Below the pieces are notes generated by a model, which saw only the letters and a list, made by a program, of their open reading frames with translations, was not told the origin of the DNA and made no database searches. Below, piece after piece: positions 3,248 through 9,622 of a stretch of DNA of 64,000 nt. Origin of the DNA: Hyphomicrobiales bacterium (lineage in GTDB: Bacteria > Pseudomonadota > Alphaproteobacteria > Rhizobiales > Beijerinckiaceae); assembly GCA_947455025.1 (NCBI GenBank), contig CANGLU010000007.1:1-64000 (forward strand). Direction: 5' to 3'. Both the position numbers and the translations under genes were made by a program. Within the stretch, counting starts at the first letter, position 1, and each line of letters begins with the position of its first letter.

Positions 3248-3271
3248 GCGGTTGTTCCACCCAGGCAACTT

Positions 3272-3302
3272 AACGCCGGAACGCAAGTTCCGGCGTTTTT
3301 TT
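3272..3302 (+). terminator. Rho-independent terminator of the puf operon
   Basis: An 11-bp perfect stem (AACGCCGGAAC at 3272-3282, GTTCCGGCGTT at 3287-3297) with a GCAA tetraloop runs into a T-tract at 3296-3302, 25 bases after the pufC stop. The next gene is on the opposite strand and convergent. Confidence 0.95.
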
Positions 3303-3321
3303 ATGGCAGGTGTAAAGGAGA

Positions 3322-4341
3322 TTAACCGCGTAAGGGCGCGTGCCGCAATTGGTCGAGCGAGGCGGAACCTGTGACGAAGCAAGCGATCTTGAGCGCGCGC
3401 GCAAAGGTTTCGACATGGGCGATCACCGCTTCCGTGCTTTGGGTGGCCGCAGGCAGCAAGGCCGCAGCTTGACCCACCAATCCTGCCCCGAGGCGGATGG
3501 CTTTTGCCGCATCAAGCCCGTGGCGAATGCCGCCTGAGGCGATCAAAGGAAGGGTCGGATGGGCTGAGTGGATTTCGTCCAAGCATTGCGCCGTCGGAAT
3601 ACCCCAATCGCGGAAGATTTCGCCGAGCGATTGATCGGCGGTCTCGGCCGATCGTTTGCCTTCAACCGCGGCCCAGCTGGTACCGCCAGCGCCCGCGACA
3701 TCAACCGCCGCTACCCCGCATTCAATCAGCCGCTTAGCGACCGCTGCCGATATGCCGCTGCCCACTTCCTTGACGATAATCGGGACGCCGATGCGCGGTA
3801 CAAGCTGCTCAATCGCCTGCGTGACGCCTTTGAAATTGATATCGCCGCCCTTTTGCAAGGCTTCTTGCAAGGGGTTAAGATGCAGGATGAGGGCATTGGC
3901 CTCAATCGCGTCAACCGCACGGCGGGCATCGTCAATCCCCATGCCATTGACGAGCTGAACGGCGCCGAGATTACCGAAGATCGGGATATCGGGTGCCAAG
4001 CGGCGCAATTCCCGCCCCAGCCCATGCGTCTCATCGGTGGTGAGCGCAATCCGTTGCGAGCCGACGCCCATCGCAAAGCCGCATTGCTGCGCGGCCTCGG
4101 CCAGCGCGCGGTTGATGGTGACGGATTCCACCGGCCCGCCCGTCATCGAGGAAGCAAGGAAGGGGATACGCAGCGCAAAGCCGAGAAACTGGGAGGAAAG
4201 ATCGATCTGATCGAAATCTACTTCGGGCAAGGCATTGTGCTCGAAGGATAAACCGTCGAAACCGGCCGGCATCGAATGGGACGCCGTACCGGAAAGAACG
4301 ATATCTAAATGATCGCGCTTACGCCGCTCAATATCAGTCAT
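3322..4341 (-). CDS. fni: Type 2 isopentenyl-diphosphate delta-isomerase
   Basis: FMN-dependent enzyme that interconverts isopentenyl and dimethylallyl diphosphate, feeding the phytyl/geranylgeranyl tail of bacteriochlorophyll and carotenoids. From the chosen start MTDIERRKRDHL the protein has 339 residues, usual for the family. The N-terminal RKxxHL motif, the SSMTGG motif, GVGSQR and the FMN-phosphate loop near SGGIRHG and GLVGQA all match type 2 isomerases. An upstream ATG ten codons earlier is possible but lacks a better ribosome binding site. It sits between pufC and cycA, a common place for an isoprenoid gene in phototrophic alphaproteobacteria. Confidence 0.92.
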   Translation of the reverse strand: MTDIERRKRDHLDIVLSGTASHSMPAGFDGLSFEHNALPEVDFDQIDLSSQFLGFALRIPFLASSMTGGPVESVTINRALAEAAQQCGFAMGVGSQRIALTTDETHGLGRELRRLAPDIPIFGNLGAVQLVNGMGIDDARRAVDAIEANALILHLNPLQEALQKGGDINFKGVTQAIEQLVPRIGVPIIVKEVGSGISAAVAKRLIECGVAAVDVAGAGGTSWAAVEGKRSAETADQSLGEIFRDWGIPTAQCLDEIHSAHPTLPLIASGGIRHGLDAAKAIRLGAGLVGQAAALLPAATQSTEAVIAHVETFARALKIACFVTGSASLDQLRHAPLRG

Positions 4342-4390
4342 AAGCGCGATCTTAATAGAGCAAACCGGCAATAGCCAGCTTGGCTGACGC

Positions 4391-4771
4391 TTATGGCTTG
4401 GATTTTAGATAGGCGATAACGTCGGCCACTTCTTGCGGGTTCTTGAGGCCGGCGAAGGCCATCTTCGTGCCGGGTACATAGGCTTTCGGATCTGGAAGAT
4501 AGGCAGCAAGCGTTGCCTCGTCCCACACCTGGCCTTCGGCACCCTTGGCGGCCATGGCGTCCGAATATTTGTAATCGGCGATGGAGGCCGTCTTCCGGCC
4601 AACGACGCCTTTCAGCGTTGGGCCGATCTTGTTTACGCCCTGCTCGTTCTCGTGGCAGGCCTTGCACTTGACGAATACGGTCGCGCCAGCTGCTGCGTCG
4701 CCATCGGCAAAAGCAGGGGTTGCAAGGAGCATTGCTGCGGCGATCGAGGAGAAAATAAAGTTCTTGGACAT
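4391..4771 (-). CDS. cycA: Cytochrome c2
   Basis: A 126-residue soluble periplasmic electron carrier. Residues 1-22 form a signal peptide ending AFA. The haem site is C36-K-A-C39-H40 and the distal ligand is Met104 in GTKMAFAGL. The compact size and PTLKGVVGRK motif place it in the class I, mitochondrial-like c2 group. In phototrophs it shuttles electrons from the bc1 complex to the reaction centre, here presumably to PufC. An AGGGAT site lies about 8 bases before the ATG. It is probably transcribed on its own, divergent from nothing and 48 bases downstream of the small membrane gene at 4819-5118. Confidence 0.93.
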   Translation of the reverse strand: MSKNFIFSSIAAAMLLATPAFADGDAAAGATVFVKCKACHENEQGVNKIGPTLKGVVGRKTASIADYKYSDAMAAKGAEGQVWDEATLAAYLPDPKAYVPGTKMAFAGLKNPQEVADVIAYLKSKP

Positions 4772-4818
4772 TATGACTGATCCCTTTTGGAGTCAGCCGC
4801 ATTTGCGCTGACGACAAT

Positions 4819-5118
4819 CTACGTCTGACTCCCCTGATTTGGATTTGCCTTGAGACCACGAATTTTTAAGGCAAGCTCACCCAGATGCGCAAGGAGGCTC
4901 AGACCAAGAAATACAGCAATCTCGCCAAGGCTCGATCCGGTAAGTGCCGTATGCAGGGCCAAAACAAGGCAGGCTCCTGCCAAAAGCGCCGCCAAAAACC
5001 CCGGAATCGATGAATTTTGCCCCGCGTGACGCAGATAAAGCGTCACGATGATGGCCTCCACCGCCATGACCAGGAGAACAATCTCCGTGATCGTGCCGCT
5101 CTTAATCCATTCATCCAT
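4819..5118 (-). CDS. Unrecognised small membrane protein
   Basis: A 99-residue protein with three predicted membrane helices at roughly residues 10-30, 38-58 and 63-85, a short acidic N-terminus and a polar C-terminus. I do not recognise the family. It lies 41 bases downstream of the repeat protein gene and 47 bases upstream of cycA on the same strand, so all three may be cotranscribed. The coding call rests on length, hydrophobic pattern and tight packing. A role around the membrane photosynthetic apparatus is suggested only by location. Confidence 0.7.
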   Translation of the reverse strand: MDEWIKSGTITEIVLLVMAVEAIIVTLYLRHAGQNSSIPGFLAALLAGACLVLALHTALTGSSLGEIAVFLGLSLLAHLGELALKIRGLKANPNQGSQT

Positions 5119-5159
5119 GCTGTTTCCCGCCTATGCGCGGGCCCGCTGAACGAGGCGCC

Positions 5160-6098
5160 TCAATCGGCGGCCTTGCGGGGCTTTGTCAGCATTGGAAGGC
5201 CTAACAGACCGGATAGGGTCCAGCTCGATTTGGTAACCGTTGGCATGCCCAGCATTGAGGATAGCGGGGCCGCCACGCGGCTTAAGCGACTGACGCCGCC
5301 CGTTGGAAAGGTGGTCTCATCGGATTTGGATAAAACATTAATCCCGAGAAACGTCGAAAACGGGGTCGAGGTATGGGTCAGTTTTGGCCACCCCTGAACC
5401 TGCGCATCCCATCCTCTTTGATTGATCAAAGAGGGCACCCGAAAAAAGGCCGAGAATGGCGTTGCAATACGGGTAAGCTCCGGCATCCGGAAAAATTCCG
5501 AGAAGGGTCGGGCGGATTTCGTCAGCAGGGGAAGATTATACCAAGATGAAAGGCTTTGCTTGGTGCGAAGGAGTTTTGGCATTCCGAACAAAGAGGTTTC
5601 GGACGACGGCTGCCGCCAGATCGCAGGAATTCCAATCCAGTTGGAAAAGGGCGTTGATGATTTAACAACCGACGGCATGTTCCAGAAAGTCGCAAACGGA
5701 GTCGGGTCTTTTGATAAAAGCGGAATGTCAAAAAACCGCGAAAACGGCGTGCCGTCGAGAAAACTTGGCGATTCGTATTTCTTGGTCGCAGCAGCAATTT
5801 TTTCAGGCGAAAACTTATCCACGATGATCGCGGCATTGCGCGACTCGCCCCAAGGCGCATGAACGGCAACCAGTGAATAGCCTTGATTGATATAGTCGAT
5901 AAAGCCCGCCGCATCGCTCGCAGGGATGCCCGCCTTTGTGAGCCGATCTTGAAGCGTCGCATCGGGTTCGGAAGACTGATTTTCGGCGTTCGAGATCAGG
6001 AAGACGAAATTTTTATCGAACTTCTTTTTATGCAACCGATTGACCGCGCTAACGGCGTCACCATAGGCTCTGTAGATCCGCGTATTGAGTGTGCTCAT
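5160..6098 (-). CDS. Protein with twelve 16-residue tandem repeats; function unknown
   Basis: A 312-residue protein in two parts. Residues 1-116 form a globular-looking domain rich in Lys and Asp, with a segment (about 60-95) reminiscent of the DUF1269/general-stress fold; that likeness is weak. Residues 117-308 are exactly twelve units of 16 residues with no insertions or deletions. The consensus is T-P-F-S-x-F-F-x-x-P-x-L-x-K-S-x: aromatic/hydrophobic at 3, 6 and 7, Pro at 10, hydrophobic at 12 and often Lys/Arg at 14. No signal peptide or membrane helix is seen, but the units look amphipathic. It heads a three-gene run ending at cycA and is divergent from 6330-6698. I do not recognise the repeat family and assign no function. 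Confidence 0.85.
   Translation of the reverse strand: MSTLNTRIYRAYGDAVSAVNRLHKKKFDKNFVFLISNAENQSSEPDATLQDRLTKAGIPASDAAGFIDYINQGYSLVAVHAPWGESRNAAIIVDKFSPEKIAAATKKYESPSFLDGTPFSRFFDIPLLSKDPTPFATFWNMPSVVKSSTPFSNWIGIPAIWRQPSSETSLFGMPKLLRTKQSLSSWYNLPLLTKSARPFSEFFRMPELTRIATPFSAFFRVPSLINQRGWDAQVQGWPKLTHTSTPFSTFLGINVLSKSDETTFPTGGVSRLSRVAAPLSSMLGMPTVTKSSWTLSGLLGLPMLTKPRKAAD
5175..5750 (-). repeat. Twelve coding tandem repeats of 48 bp
   Basis: 576 bases, exactly 12 x 48, coding residues 117-308 of the protein at 5160-6098. Unit starts fall at residues 117, 133, 149, 165, 181, 197, 213, 229, 245, 261, 277 and 293. Units 1, 2, 3, 6, 7 and 9 are closest to consensus; 4, 8 and 10 are the most diverged. 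The DNA is much less repetitive than the protein, which points to old duplication kept by selection on the protein. Confidence 0.9.
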
Positions 6099-6329
6099 GA
6101 TGTTTACGCCTGTCTGTTAGGTTGTGTTTGAGCGCCGCAAACGTCGCCCTTGGTGGTAATTGCGCCTCTACCTTTCGGTGGAATGTGCGATAGAAAGCTT
6201 ATTCTGGCAACCGGATCACGATGTCCGGCAAGGGTGATCATGGGAGGAGACACAAGCATTGCCCGAGACATGTTTTGGAGGTTATCGTGAAGGCTAACCA
6301 CTGTTGTGTCCTTTTGGCTGGGTGCTGAT

Positions 6330-6698
6330 ATGCCAATTTCTCTCTTTATCATCCTTCCCTTTGTCACCATGTTCCTTGGTTTTAGCCTTGTCTTGCTTCT
6401 CATACGTGGCAAACGAAAGTCGGTTCTCATCGGGGTGCATGTTTTATTTGGCTTAGCCACGCTTGAGATGGTGGTGATTATGCTGAAGGGCTGGCCGATT
6501 GGTGATGCGGTTCCTGCCGGTGAATTTGGCGACATCGCGGCGGGGATCTTGGCGCTTGCGGCCTTTTTCGGCCTGCTTAGGCCGGTTTTCGGGCGCGGCT
6601 CGACCTTCAAATCCAATGCCATGCTGGTGGCCCATGGAAGCGCGGGACTTGCGGGTGTTTTATTGTGCATCGCCTGGCTCTCCAAATCTCTAGGGTGA
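6330..6698 (+). CDS. Unrecognised four-helix membrane protein
   Basis: A 122-residue protein from the ATG at 6330; a GTG eight codons upstream is the alternative start. Four hydrophobic helices lie at about residues 2-22, 32-52, 67-86 and 99-117 with short polar loops. I do not recognise the family. It is divergent from the repeat-protein gene and its stop overlaps the end of pucC tail to tail by 9 bases. Cotranscription with any neighbour is impossible on this strand, so it should have its own promoter in 6099-6329. Confidence 0.65.
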   Translation: MPISLFIILPFVTMFLGFSLVLLLIRGKRKSVLIGVHVLFGLATLEMVVIMLKGWPIGDAVPAGEFGDIAAGILALAAFFGLLRPVFGRGSTFKSNAMLVAHGSAGLAGVLLCIAWLSKSLG

Positions 6699-8102
6699 GC
6701 CCAATTGGCTTTGGGCATTCGCTTGACGGTCAGGTCGAATAAGCGGTGCCATAGCGGCCAAGGTAAAGATCAATAAAATAATTTCGAGCGCATAGACGTA
6801 CATATATCCGGTTGCGGCGCCGAACTCGCCGCGGAGCGGCATCGCAGCAACACTATCTCGTAGAATTCCACCGATTGCGATGGCAAGTCCGGCCGCAACC
6901 GCCTGCGACGCCCCCCATGCACCAAGTGCTAATCCAACCTGATTGCGGGGCGCAAGATTCATGGTCGCCGTCAGAGTTCCATGTCCGAAAAGCCCTGCAC
7001 CAAACCCTACCATCAAGGTACCAACCGCGAAAAAGAGCGGCTCATTCGCAGGCGAAGCGGCAATGACCAAGATAAAAGCGGGAACCCCTGTTAGTGCGCC
7101 GTAGCTTGCCATTCGAAAGGGATCTGCGCCGCGGCTTAAGACGCGGGATGCCAAAGCAAGACCAATCAAGCCGCCCGCTGCAAGGGTTGCGGTGAGGCTC
7201 GTTGTTGCACCCACACTGAGATGGAGAACTTGCCCGCCATAAGGCTCGAGCAGCACATCCGCCATGCTAAACCCCATCGTGCCAAGGCCAACCGATAAAA
7301 GGCGGCGGACCGCATGTCCGCCTTGGGCAAAGGATTGCCAGGATTCACGAAAGGACGGCGGTTGTTTGGCCGGATTACGGCGGCCCGCGTTGCGACCTTC
7401 TTGTTTCCACGATGCGATCGTATTGAAAACAAGTGTGATAATCGCGCATCCCTGAATCACTTGGATCAGACGGAGCGGGCTAAAATTCGCTAACAGCGCG
7501 CCAAAAATGACGGCGCTGATGATCATGCCGACAAGCAACATGACATACATTAAACCGACAACCTTCGGCTGCGATTCACTGGGTGCCAAATCCGTTGCTA
7601 GTGCAAGCCCAATGGTTTGCACCGTGTGTAAACCTGCCCCTACAAGTAAAAACGCGATGCCTGCACCAAATTGTCCAACCCATATCGGATAACGCGCTGA
7701 TTCACCGCCACCAGAAAGCACAAGCAATGCAAAAGGCATGATGGCAAGGCCGCCAAATTGAATCATCGTACCGCGAAAAATAAATGGTACTCTTCGCCAT
7801 CCCAATGCCGATTGATGAATGTCTGATTTAAAACCGATAAAGGCTCGGAAAGGCGCAAAAATCAGAGGCAGTGAAATCATCACACCAACAAGGGATGCCG
7901 GGACATCCAATTCGACAATCATCACGCGGTTTAGGGTGCCGACGAGTAATACAAGCGCCATGCCGACAGTGACTTGGAAAAGGGATAATCGGAGTAAGCG
8001 GCTCAGTGGCAAATCGGGCGTGGCCACATCGGCAAAAGGCAAGAATCGAGGCCCAAAGCTTGCCCAAGTTTGAATGAGTTTCAGGCTGACGCGGGTCATC
8101 AT
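6690..8102 (-). CDS. pucC: LH2 assembly protein / bacteriochlorophyll delivery, MFS-like
   Basis: A member of the BCH2/PucC/LhaA branch of the major facilitator fold, with 12 predicted helices, needed for LH2 accumulation. The opening PRFLPFADVATPDLPLSRLLRLSLFQV region matches the start of lhaA in this same window, as do the TLNRVMIVEL and FRAFIGFKSD segments. The start at 8102 has an AAAGGA site 9 bases upstream; an ATG at 8162 would add 20 residues with no homologue in LhaA. It follows pucB and pucA on the same strand after a hairpin, so it is the third gene of a pucBAC operon. Confidence 0.92.
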   Translation of the reverse strand: MMTRVSLKLIQTWASFGPRFLPFADVATPDLPLSRLLRLSLFQVTVGMALVLLVGTLNRVMIVELDVPASLVGVMISLPLIFAPFRAFIGFKSDIHQSALGWRRVPFIFRGTMIQFGGLAIMPFALLVLSGGGESARYPIWVGQFGAGIAFLLVGAGLHTVQTIGLALATDLAPSESQPKVVGLMYVMLLVGMIISAVIFGALLANFSPLRLIQVIQGCAIITLVFNTIASWKQEGRNAGRRNPAKQPPSFRESWQSFAQGGHAVRRLLSVGLGTMGFSMADVLLEPYGGQVLHLSVGATTSLTATLAAGGLIGLALASRVLSRGADPFRMASYGALTGVPAFILVIAASPANEPLFFAVGTLMVGFGAGLFGHGTLTATMNLAPRNQVGLALGAWGASQAVAAGLAIAIGGILRDSVAAMPLRGEFGAATGYMYVYALEIILLIFTLAAMAPLIRPDRQANAQSQLGSP

Positions 8103-8223
8103 GTGAGCCAGTCCTTTTCCGCCCCATGGATACGGGTTCAAGCCCGCCCTCAATCTCTTCATACCCCATGCCGATCAGTGCCGTGGAGGATGTATCAATT
8201 TTATAAAATAGTGCAGGATGAAA

Positions 8224-8249
8224 GGGTCGGAACCGTGCGATCCCGACCC
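8224..8249 (-). promoter_or_regulatory. pucA-pucC intercistronic hairpin
   Basis: GGGTCGG and CCGACCC form a perfect 7-bp stem around a 12-base loop between pucA and pucC. There is no strong T-run, so partial termination or 3'-end protection of the abundant pucBA message is more likely than full termination. Confidence 0.7.
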
Positions 8250-8272
8250 ATTACTCGCGAAAAAATCCTGAA

Positions 8273-8497
8273 TTAGGAATTCAAGATCGCTACGTTTTTA
8301 AGATTAAGAGCCGCCGGAGCGGTTGTCTGAATCTCCATCGAGACCTTCTTGTGGCCGCCTTCTAAGAAAGCAGGGAACCACGTCGTGTGGGTCAGGATGG
8401 CGTAGTGCACAATCAACGAAGTCACCGCCACGGCGCCCAGAAATACTGGAATCCCAACGGTTGGCTTAACTACCGTCCACATTCTTCCTTGGTTCAT
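8273..8497 (-). CDS. pucA: LH2 light-harvesting alpha subunit, B800-820-like
   Basis: A 74-residue alpha chain that starts [10 protein letters not shown], as LH2 alpha chains do (Met1 region binds B800). The helix spans about residues 14-36, with the B850-type ligand His31. After HTTWFPA the residues at 44 and 45 are Phe and Leu. In B800-850 complexes these are Tyr and Trp/Tyr, which hydrogen-bond the pigment acetyl groups; Phe-Leu is the pair found in B800-820 (LH3) complexes. The tail after GGHKK is about 25 residues longer than in Rhodoblastus acidophilus. It is 12 bases downstream of pucB. Confidence 0.95.
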
Positions 8498-8509
8498 GTC
8501 CGTTCTCCC

Positions 8510-8665
8510 TCAGTGAAGCCAGGGTGAATAAACATAAGCAAGGAAATGCGCGAACAGCGCGATAGCACCGAAAACACGGGCGCCATCGATGATATGCTTG
8601 TGCAGTTCCTCAGATTCCGCGTGTGTTAGGCCGGTTGGCCAGACGCGGTGTGCATCATCGCTCAT
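8510..8665 (-). CDS. pucB: LH2 light-harvesting beta subunit
   Basis: A 51-residue beta chain: polar N-terminus, the [11 protein letters not shown] motif whose His is near B800, one helix, and the B850-type ligand His in FAHFLAY, ending SPWLH as LH2 beta chains do. A GGAGGT site lies 6 bases upstream of the ATG at 8665. It is the first gene of the puc operon; two PpsR boxes lie about 120-165 bases upstream of the start codon. Confidence 0.95.
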
Positions 8666-8786
8666 ATCGCTACCTCCATGGAGTAATGCGATCATTCTCG
8701 TGCTGAACCCGCACGCGGGTTGCGACAAAGTTGCCTCCCGAGCAAAAGCCCGGACGACCCCATTCCCACTGTCGTACGACGACAAG

Positions 8787-8804
8787 TGTAATGATATTAT
8801 GACA
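8787..8804 (-). promoter_or_regulatory. PpsR/CrtJ box, puc-proximal
   Basis: TGTAATGATATTATGACA is a perfect TGT-N12-ACA palindrome with AT-rich spacer, upstream of pucB. It is one of a pair spaced 8 bp apart, the classic arrangement for cooperative PpsR binding and repression under oxygen. Confidence 0.88.
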
Positions 8805-8812
8805 GTTAAGAT

Positions 8813-8830
8813 TGTCAATTCGTTTTGACA
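8813..8830 (-). promoter_or_regulatory. PpsR/CrtJ box, puc-distal
   Basis: TGTCAATTCGTTTTGACA, a second perfect TGT-N12-ACA site, starts 8 bp after the first ends. The pair lies between the puc operon and the methyltransferase gene, which is transcribed in the same direction and ends at 8987. Confidence 0.88.
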
Positions 8831-8986
8831 TTAATACTATCAAGCGGCTGATAGGGTTGAATTAACCCTTTGTTTTTAATGGGAAATCTCGGAAACTTGC
8901 CGATTCGGCAGTCGCCAGAGGCCGGATCAGGCAGGCTTCGCCTCACCGCTGCGGTTCGGTTGGATGACGGGACAGCTGACGAGCGA

Positions 8987-9622
8987 TTATTCGGCCAGAA
9001 GCCGCTCCCGGATCGATTGGCTACCCGGAATATGCTGCATGACGAGATCAACCACTTTCACGCGGTTTTGCTCGGTTTTTGTCGCCAGCGCCCATAATTC
9101 GAAACGGGCAGGCTTTTCGAAGGTCATGATCGAGCCATATCCGCATTGTGACAGGGCCTTTTGGAGCGTCGTTCTCGTAAAGGCGGTACGATGCGCCATG
9201 TAGACATTGCCATTTCGAATGGAGGCGTTGTGGCCAAAGACCATATCGAGCGGTGTAATAGGCCCCATGCCCGACATATAGGCGACCGAATCGAGCCCGT
9301 TATTGGCGATATAGGCGGCAATCGACGCCATATCGGGGCAGGTGATGACGACAAACCCGTCATCTTTCAGAACGCGGTGAAACTCCCCAAGCGCGACCGG
9401 CGCTTCATGGGGATAAAGATGCTCAATATTATGGGATGAGAAAACCGCATCCAGGGAGGCCGGCTCAATCGGGCTCAGATTGGTGATTGAGGCGATAACA
9501 TCGGGGTTAACCGACGCGTCGATATCAAGCCGAATTTCGGCCCATTCATCGCTATCAAAACCCGGCGTTCGTGGCCCCTTTTTGGCCGGACCACAGCCGA
9601 CATGCAGAAATCGCTTCGTCAT
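8987..9622 (-). CDS. SAM-dependent methyltransferase, class I-like
   Basis: A 211-residue protein with the glycine-rich SAM motif LHVGCG at about residues 6-11, an acidic second motif (RLDIDASVNPD) and a SSHNIEHLY segment of the kind seen in sugar- or cell-surface-associated methyltransferases. A TTG two codons upstream is an alternative start. It lies 116 bases after the start of tspO's downstream end and is probably the last gene of the bchG-bchP-tspO run. The substrate is not evident; there is no sign that it is a bacteriochlorophyll enzyme. Confidence 0.75.
   Translation of the reverse strand: MTKRFLHVGCGPAKKGPRTPGFDSDEWAEIRLDIDASVNPDVIASITNLSPIEPASLDAVFSSHNIEHLYPHEAPVALGEFHRVLKDDGFVVITCPDMASIAAYIANNGLDSVAYMSGMGPITPLDMVFGHNASIRNGNVYMAHRTAFTRTTLQKALSQCGYGSIMTFEKPARFELWALATKTEQNRVKVVDLVMQHIPGSQSIRERLLAE

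Follow-up and report, generated by a model that had tools for sequence, protein, structure and literature searches.

A twelve-unit repeat protein encoded near the puc genes of a Hyphomicrobiales bacterium is probably a long relative of the LH2 gamma polypeptide

The analysed window, a 64,000-nucleotide stretch of a Hyphomicrobiales bacterium contig (CANGLU010000007.1), carries a gene for a 312-residue repeat protein (5160-6098, reverse strand, ATG start, frame open). The pucC, pucA and pucB genes of LH2, a textbook antenna, lie within 2.5 kb of it on the same strand. The features of this locus are as follows.

4819..5118 (-): 99-residue hydrophobic protein, directly downstream of the repeat gene, between it and cycA
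5160..5174 (-): four-residue tail and stop codon of the repeat protein
5175..5750 (-): twelve 16-residue units (residues 117-308), consensus [TA]-P-[FL]-S-x-F-F-G-x-P-x-L-x-[KR]-S-x
5751..6098 (-): N-terminal domain (N-domain; residues 1-116), ferredoxin-like alpha/beta fold as predicted by AF2
6306..6698 (+): 130-residue hydrophobic protein, between pucC and the repeat gene, on the opposite strand
6690..8162 (-): pucC-like LH2 protein, about 590 bp from the repeat gene; similar genes adjoin the repeat gene in related loci
8273..8497 (-): pucA, LH2 alpha polypeptide; matches PDB B800-820/B800-850 alpha chains (best E 6.7e-21), PF00556 at 8375-8488
8510..8665 (-): pucB, LH2 beta polypeptide, by its place beside pucA; start taken at MSDDAHR

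We take the product of 6690..8162 to be PucC, and the frame at 8510..8665 shows LH2 beta sequence features; the listed open reading frame of pucB starts upstream of MSDDAHR, which we adopted as its start. The nearest PDB relatives of the LH2 alpha polypeptide include alpha chains of nonameric Rps. palustris complexes, which suggests that the LH2 ring is a nonamer here as well. Neither small hydrophobic protein matched a Pfam or NCBIfam entry. The 130-residue protein was found in all eight close relatives of the locus at 53-91% identity, and relatives of the 99-residue protein (35-37% identity) adjoin cycA in two other loci (L036 and L043). Given the gap of about 590 bp and the opposite-strand gene, the repeat gene of the window clade is not simply part of the puc transcript. 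TGT-N12-ACA, which we take to be a PpsR-like motif, occurs 12 times in the window against 7.5 expected, a count reached by 6 of 100 shuffles. Tandem sites lie upstream of pucB (8787-8804 and 8813-8830), and the 207 bp preceding the repeat gene hold none.

The first-pass annotation had described a domain of about 116 residues followed by twelve 16-residue units without gaps, and quantification bore this out. The BLOSUM62 self-similarity of the protein at lag 16 was 0.98, compared with a mean of -0.88 (sd 0.16, z = 11.8) and a maximum of -0.31 in 2000 shuffles, and the four best lags in the range 2-64 were 64, 32, 16 and 48. Tandem Repeats Finder reported no DNA repeat in the twelve-unit region, so the periodicity is confined to the protein level. 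Higher-order periods of 32 (odd/even) and 64 residues gave permutation p values of 0.06 and 0.03, and we make no claim for them. The source genome holds one match to the repeat protein, and a plasmid collection searched with it gave no match. The view that the protein belongs to no named family holds for Pfam (no family at E up to 1) and for NCBIfam (a chance-level match only, E 0.05, far below cut-off), but a solved structural relative exists, namely the LH2 gamma polypeptide discussed below.

A scan of genome contigs yielded eight close loci, in records labelled Beijerinckiaceae, Rhizobiales, Hyphomicrobiales or Rhizobium, with proteins of 310-312 residues that are 56-89% identical to the window protein. 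All nine sequences consist of the N-domain and exactly 192 ungapped repeat residues; conservation differs from position to position, with unit 2 starting with TPFATFWNMPS in each of them and units 4-8 likewise well conserved. The repeats are conserved at least as well as the N-domain (mean majority identity 0.79 versus 0.69). Comparison with three of the eight relatives gave whole-protein dN/dS values of 0.103 (L033), 0.112 (L026) and 0.086 (L031), and 0.075-0.112 for the repeat region of the same genes. The repeat protein is thus under purifying selection, as had been proposed for its periodic part.

The units follow the consensus to different degrees. Units 4, 8 and 10 depart from it at positions 3-4 in all nine sequences, whereas nine units (1-3, 5-7, 9, 11 and 12) are canonical or nearly so by these two positions, the near-canonical exceptions being unit 2 with Ala 4 and unit 6 with Asn 4 in three of the nine sequences. 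Pro 10 is missing from unit 9 in eight of the nine. Unit 10 is the least similar to the others, and a profile scan trained without it recognised 11 of the 12 units of the window protein. Ser 4 is frequent (70 of 108 window-type units) and could be an alternative BChl ligand or merely structural.

AF2, run on the whole repeat protein with the nine sequences, gave ten-residue pLDDT means of 67-90 across residues 1-110 and values below 50, mostly near 30, for residues 115-312. The ferredoxin-like N-domain was therefore predicted with confidence, but the repeat tail showed no confident structure, and the solenoid that had been suggested for it found no backing. Foldseek of the AF2 model returned no row at E 0.001 or better. 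Among fold neighbours of the N-domain, PII and CutA reached a best Z of 8.2 (93 residues, rmsd 3.1); the VIA rows, with PII, CutA and other proteins at Z 7-8, reflect an arrangement that is widespread. As none of these PII/CutA-like and other ferredoxin-like rows was clearly ahead, we adopted no function from them, and PII-like sensing by the N-domain is speculation.

We searched 397 genomes of the order with the repeat protein, and 19 matched at E up to 0.001. One match (G151, locus L052) was spurious, with four internal stops and no profile hit. The 18 confirmed positives comprise the window genome and 17 others with an N-domain and two to seven recognisable units, and all 18 adjoin pucBA. 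Reaction-centre (RC) genes were present in 76 of the 397 genomes and in 17 of the 19 matched ones. Taking at least three LHC matches as the mark of an LH2-bearing genome gave 23 genomes, to which we added G184 as the 24th because pucB and pucA adjoin its repeat gene. Every confirmed positive falls within these 24 (hypergeometric 2e-26, a value that ignores kinship and includes one genome added after its locus was seen). Profile re-search of the six remaining LH2-bearing genomes revealed full-length relatives beside pucBA and pucC in G049 and G024, so that both searches together place the repeat gene in 20 of 24; G030, G073, G139 and G190 gave partial profile hits only, which in G030 and G139 were N-domain-only proteins. 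Since the single-sequence search had missed two divergent cases, further misses are possible among the remaining genomes. G184 itself, rated 99% complete, carries pucBAC and the repeat gene (L044) with two LHC matches and no reaction-centre match, which may reflect a missing contig or a real loss.

Profile searches matched 36 of 89 genomes of the family, with G000, G512, G547 and G557 repeat-bearing, and 15 of 162 genomes of the class, seven of them besides G000 at E below 1e-20; all seven adjoin pucBA. None of the weaker matches examined (seven from the family, five from the class) has repeats. In the final scan, profile hits were obtained in 49 of 52 loci (the others being L052 of G151, L054 and L055), and 46 of these 49, from 45 genomes of Alphaproteobacteria, also contain a pucA, pucB or pucC match, the nearest at most 681 bp away and 39 on the same strand; the criterion for picking loci was resemblance to the repeat protein, its profile or gamma, puc playing no part in the choice, and several loci are themselves profile members. 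In nine of the 46 puc-linked loci, pucA and pucC flank the repeat gene; it follows pucC by 22-255 bp in 21 (22-103 bp in 20) and by about 580-680 bp in the nine of the window clade (584-681 bp, same strand, in the eight relatives), and it is on the opposite strand in seven. Among the three profile-hit loci without puc, L127 and L128 encode N-domain-only proteins, and L108 is a repeat-bearing second copy in G557 with no puc gene in its 16 kb. At the other G557 locus (L107), five pucBA pairs and pucC stand in a row (3264-8996) on the strand opposite to the repeat protein, whose open frame of 336 residues contains irregular and in part duplicated units. Unit spacing is irregular in many distant relatives, the most divergent of which have two or three recognisable units. 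The repeat-bearing form is nearly restricted to puc loci, with L108 as the exception.

In several genomes puf is far away or on another contig while the repeat gene still adjoins pucBA or pucC, which identifies LH2 (puc), and not the puf/RC core, as the antenna to which the gene is linked. Of the photosynthetic-membrane connection suggested earlier, the antenna link is therefore strongly supported, but the tie is to puc. This distinction bears on whether the protein could instead be an RC-LH1 subunit that wraps 12 of the 16-17 LH1 protomers. Twelve units would suit an LH1 ring better than a nonamer, and pufM lies about 3 kb away in the window and in seven relatives' loci. However, beyond the puc linkage where puf is elsewhere, single-sequence search gave no hit in the 53 order genomes with RC genes and exactly two LHC matches, and profile re-search of three such genomes (G246, G280 and G322) gave no full-length hit, with a partial one in G280 (E 2.4e-4). 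We consider an RC-LH1 role very improbable.

The N-domain is homologous across the repeat family (hhalign profile probabilities 98.8 and 99.3), and the family profile also matches proteins that consist of the N-domain only. From their sequences, these N-domain kin look like YflT/17M-type proteins. The name draws on one weak Pfam match, of PF11181 (YflT) at E 0.034 to the N-domain of one of nine relatives, with general stress protein 17M as our assumed name for them. The window protein did not match PF11181 in Pfam at E up to 1, and the Pfam cut-off was not reached. A stress protein of this kind might have been recruited to the photosynthesis cluster, with the tail as a general membrane anchor. 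In agreement with such an origin, N-domain-only relatives exist, most of them (10 of 12 examined from the family and class scans) with a glycine-rich insert, and none has puc in 12 loci of about 3 kb and two of 16 kb. They differ from the repeat protein in exactly these traits and in having no repeats, though, and three observations leave such a recruited stress protein hardly credible: repeat-bearing proteins are almost all encoded at puc loci, the unit length is exact across divergent orthologues, and LH2 gamma and the repeat protein have a common unit register (below).

Among PDB sequences, with matches accepted up to E 10, the window protein matched only the LH2 gamma polypeptide of Rps. 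palustris (PucA-LH2-gamma; E 0.015). The passages of PMC9618040 considered here portray gamma as an extended ribbon that undulates within the plane of the membrane, close to its cytoplasmic side, encloses six of the nine LH2 protomers and holds six Ser-liganded BChls spaced about 27.6 A. The same passages leave the partial ring coverage without explanation, assign the extra LH2 density to gamma alone with no mention of an N-domain-bearing neighbour and state, based on BLASTp, that gamma occurs only in Rhodopseudomonas. The gamma sequence also appears among the polypeptides of another Rps. palustris antenna preparation (PMC9897067), and the passages considered of PMC9897067, PMC10214105 and PMC12817894 do not extend the gamma/repeat family. 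The earlier idea of membrane- or antenna-contacting hooks fits this solved relative, as far as the ribbon is described in those passages (PMC9618040).

Gamma (RPA1495; PDB 7zcu, 7zdi, 7ze3, 7ze8), as presented in these parts of PMC9618040, resembles the repeat protein in having 16-residue units that are extended rather than folded. Both have an aromatic residue at position 3 and mostly at 6, Gly 8, Pro 10, a hydrophobic residue at 12 and commonly a basic one at 14, and both are encoded within the puc cluster, in gamma genomes as in the window. In contrast to the 312-residue window protein with its twelve units and N-domain, gamma has 97 residues, six units and no N-domain, and it carries Ser at position 7, where window-type units mostly have Phe, Leu, Trp or Tyr. 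This Mg-ligating Ser (S-G-x-P) is present in all 25 gamma units compared; among 108 window-type units it occurs three times, each time in the divergent unit 10. A wider scan, of the window protein together with 17 distant relatives, showed it in 4 of 80 recognised units, and the window protein's units shown include none of these four. As the BChl-ligating Ser 7 is nearly absent, we do not class the repeat protein as gamma proper. Outside gamma genomes, Ser7-Gly8 occurs in the second unit of L044, L045, L047 and L049, all from one genus, in which a gamma-kind pigment site may therefore exist; a gamma query gave no match in the genomes of these four loci.

Direct similarity between the two unit types was weak. 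A repeat profile of the nine close sequences scored gamma at E 1.8e-5 to 0.82, while shuffled decoys reached E 5 at best and one period-preserving decoy 1.2e-5, better than any gamma. In PDB searches, the close-relative profile returned gamma as the sole row at E 0.84, and a profile free of gamma-type members returned it at E 0.37, second of six rows and behind an aspartokinase at E 0.15; a value of E 7.7e-7 is partly circular, because the profile behind it holds two members with gamma-type units. The argument for kinship therefore rests on a bridge protein. Gamma was present in 7 of 110 genomes of one family, and in all seven the order is a pucC match, a 215-222-residue protein starting 22-64 bp after it, and then gamma (loci L066-L073; a second copy of the bridge protein in L069 is listed as 249 residues, from an upstream start). 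Like the window protein, the bridge protein has the N-domain (the same one, hhalign 98.8%) followed by 16-residue units, of which the first, of TPFSNM type with variants in L066 and L072, and the last, such as TPFSSWLGLPVL or TPLSSWLGLPVLSK, are of window type. It differs in having about seven units by eye, some only 13 residues long, and in its middle units of GPYKSFSGTPLLLDSS type, that is, the gamma type with Ser 7. In sequence terms, window-type and gamma units are thus linked by a protein that joins both types in one chain. The register agrees: aligning window-type and gamma unit profiles with Pro 10 on Pro 10 gave 0.67, none of the other 15 shifts exceeded -0.63, and 1 of 3000 column permutations (best of 16 shifts) reached 0.67.

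Two further chains of 145 residues and nine units are encoded at second loci of gamma genomes (L069 11165-11602 (-) and L073 7998-8435 (-)). They comprise eight gamma-type units and a last one of window type, a total that would correspond to all protomers of an LH2 nonamer. Both chains matched the profile built from the repeats of the nine close sequences, at E 1.5e-11 and 2.2e-10. Two gamma homologues (L072 7995-8249 (+) and L071 7986-8264 (-)) have several units cut to 13 residues, such as NKFFSGTPLLIDS, which retain the aromatic-Ser-Gly-x-Pro core. In the order sample, the gamma query matched 2 of 397 genomes, and it gave no match among 15 genomes of the family of G230. Neither of the two matched genomes has RC genes or, in the stretch examined, a profile hit. 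RPA1494, which we guess to be the gene upstream of gamma in Rps. palustris, had no mention in the open-access full texts searched, where RPA1495 appears in one paper, PMC9618040. Nor did searches of these open-access texts list a report of the wider repeat family.

Homology, a common register, puc linkage and purifying selection, all read from the sequences, argue that the repeat protein is probably an LH2-associated ribbon subunit and a long relative of Rps. palustris LH2 gamma. By analogy with gamma, we infer that it binds LH2, with a similar topology and one unit per protomer. The ferredoxin-like N-domain would stay cytoplasmic, and the 192-residue tail, having no fold of its own, would run as an extended strap that undulates through the head-group layer and circles the cytoplasmic rim of the LH2 ring with roughly one 16-residue unit per alpha/beta protomer. 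Aromatic positions 3, 6 and 7 would face the ring and basic position 14 the head groups. Such a strap would lend LH2 rings stability or set their spacing, and it may position additional pigments. The absence of an autonomous AF2 fold, the fixed unit length in the clade and the relatives of the LH2 alpha polypeptide are consistent with rim binding. Against a ribbon on LH2 stand the twelve units, which exceed nine protomers, the near absence of Ser 7, the weak direct similarity to gamma with a period-preserving decoy outscoring it, the distance of about 590 bp to pucC in the window clade, the puc-free L108, the irregular units of distant relatives and, in the passages considered of PMC9618040, an extra LH2 density filled by gamma and not by its N-domain-bearing neighbour. 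As described in the passages considered of PMC10214105, LH1 gamma of Blastochloris viridis is likewise an accessory polypeptide outside a bacterial antenna ring, but there sixteen separate polypeptides serve a 17-subunit ring in place of one long chain.

The same repeats could alternatively gather alpha/beta protomers during insertion and then leave, making the protein a factor for LH2 assembly, or a template for ring size, that works with PucC and is absent from the finished complex. The short distance of 22-103 bp to pucC in 20 of the 46 puc-linked loci would suit this role, as would the assignment of the extra density to gamma alone, with the N-domain-bearing relative unmentioned, in the passages considered (PMC9618040). 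By the same passages, however, the solved repeat-only relative belongs to mature LH2 (PMC9618040), and in nine of the 46 loci the gene lies between pucA and pucC, beside structural genes. We therefore regard a transient factor as unlikely, if less so than the RC-LH1 and stress-protein alternatives.

The LH2 ribbon can be extended to a fuller scheme, which as a whole we find doubtful and put forward tentatively: a strap built into the LH2 of many Alphaproteobacteria, with gamma as a late derivative. In the window clade, units 1-3, 5-7, 9, 11 and 12 would clamp the nine protomers of one ring, a pairing of canonical units with protomers that is a guess, and the divergent units 4, 8 and 10 would loop out or contact a neighbouring complex. 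The cytoplasmic N-domain would link or sense rings, and the acquisition of Ser 7 would have turned an ancestral, perhaps pigment-free, strap into the BChl-binding antenna subunit of Rhodopseudomonas.

LH2 gamma was already known; judged by sequence, the new element is a longer and wider variant of LH2 ribbon proteins with about twice the repeats. The published Rhodopseudomonas-only view of gamma needs widening, and our findings suggest that LH2-type straps are far more widespread than reported. The puc-linked repeat family spans 45 alphaproteobacterial genomes, in forms of two to twelve recognisable units with a second domain. With it, questions of how far a ring is covered, of additional B800 pigments and of how LH2 assembles become testable, and it provides a natural, modular ruler with which a membrane ring can be wrapped.
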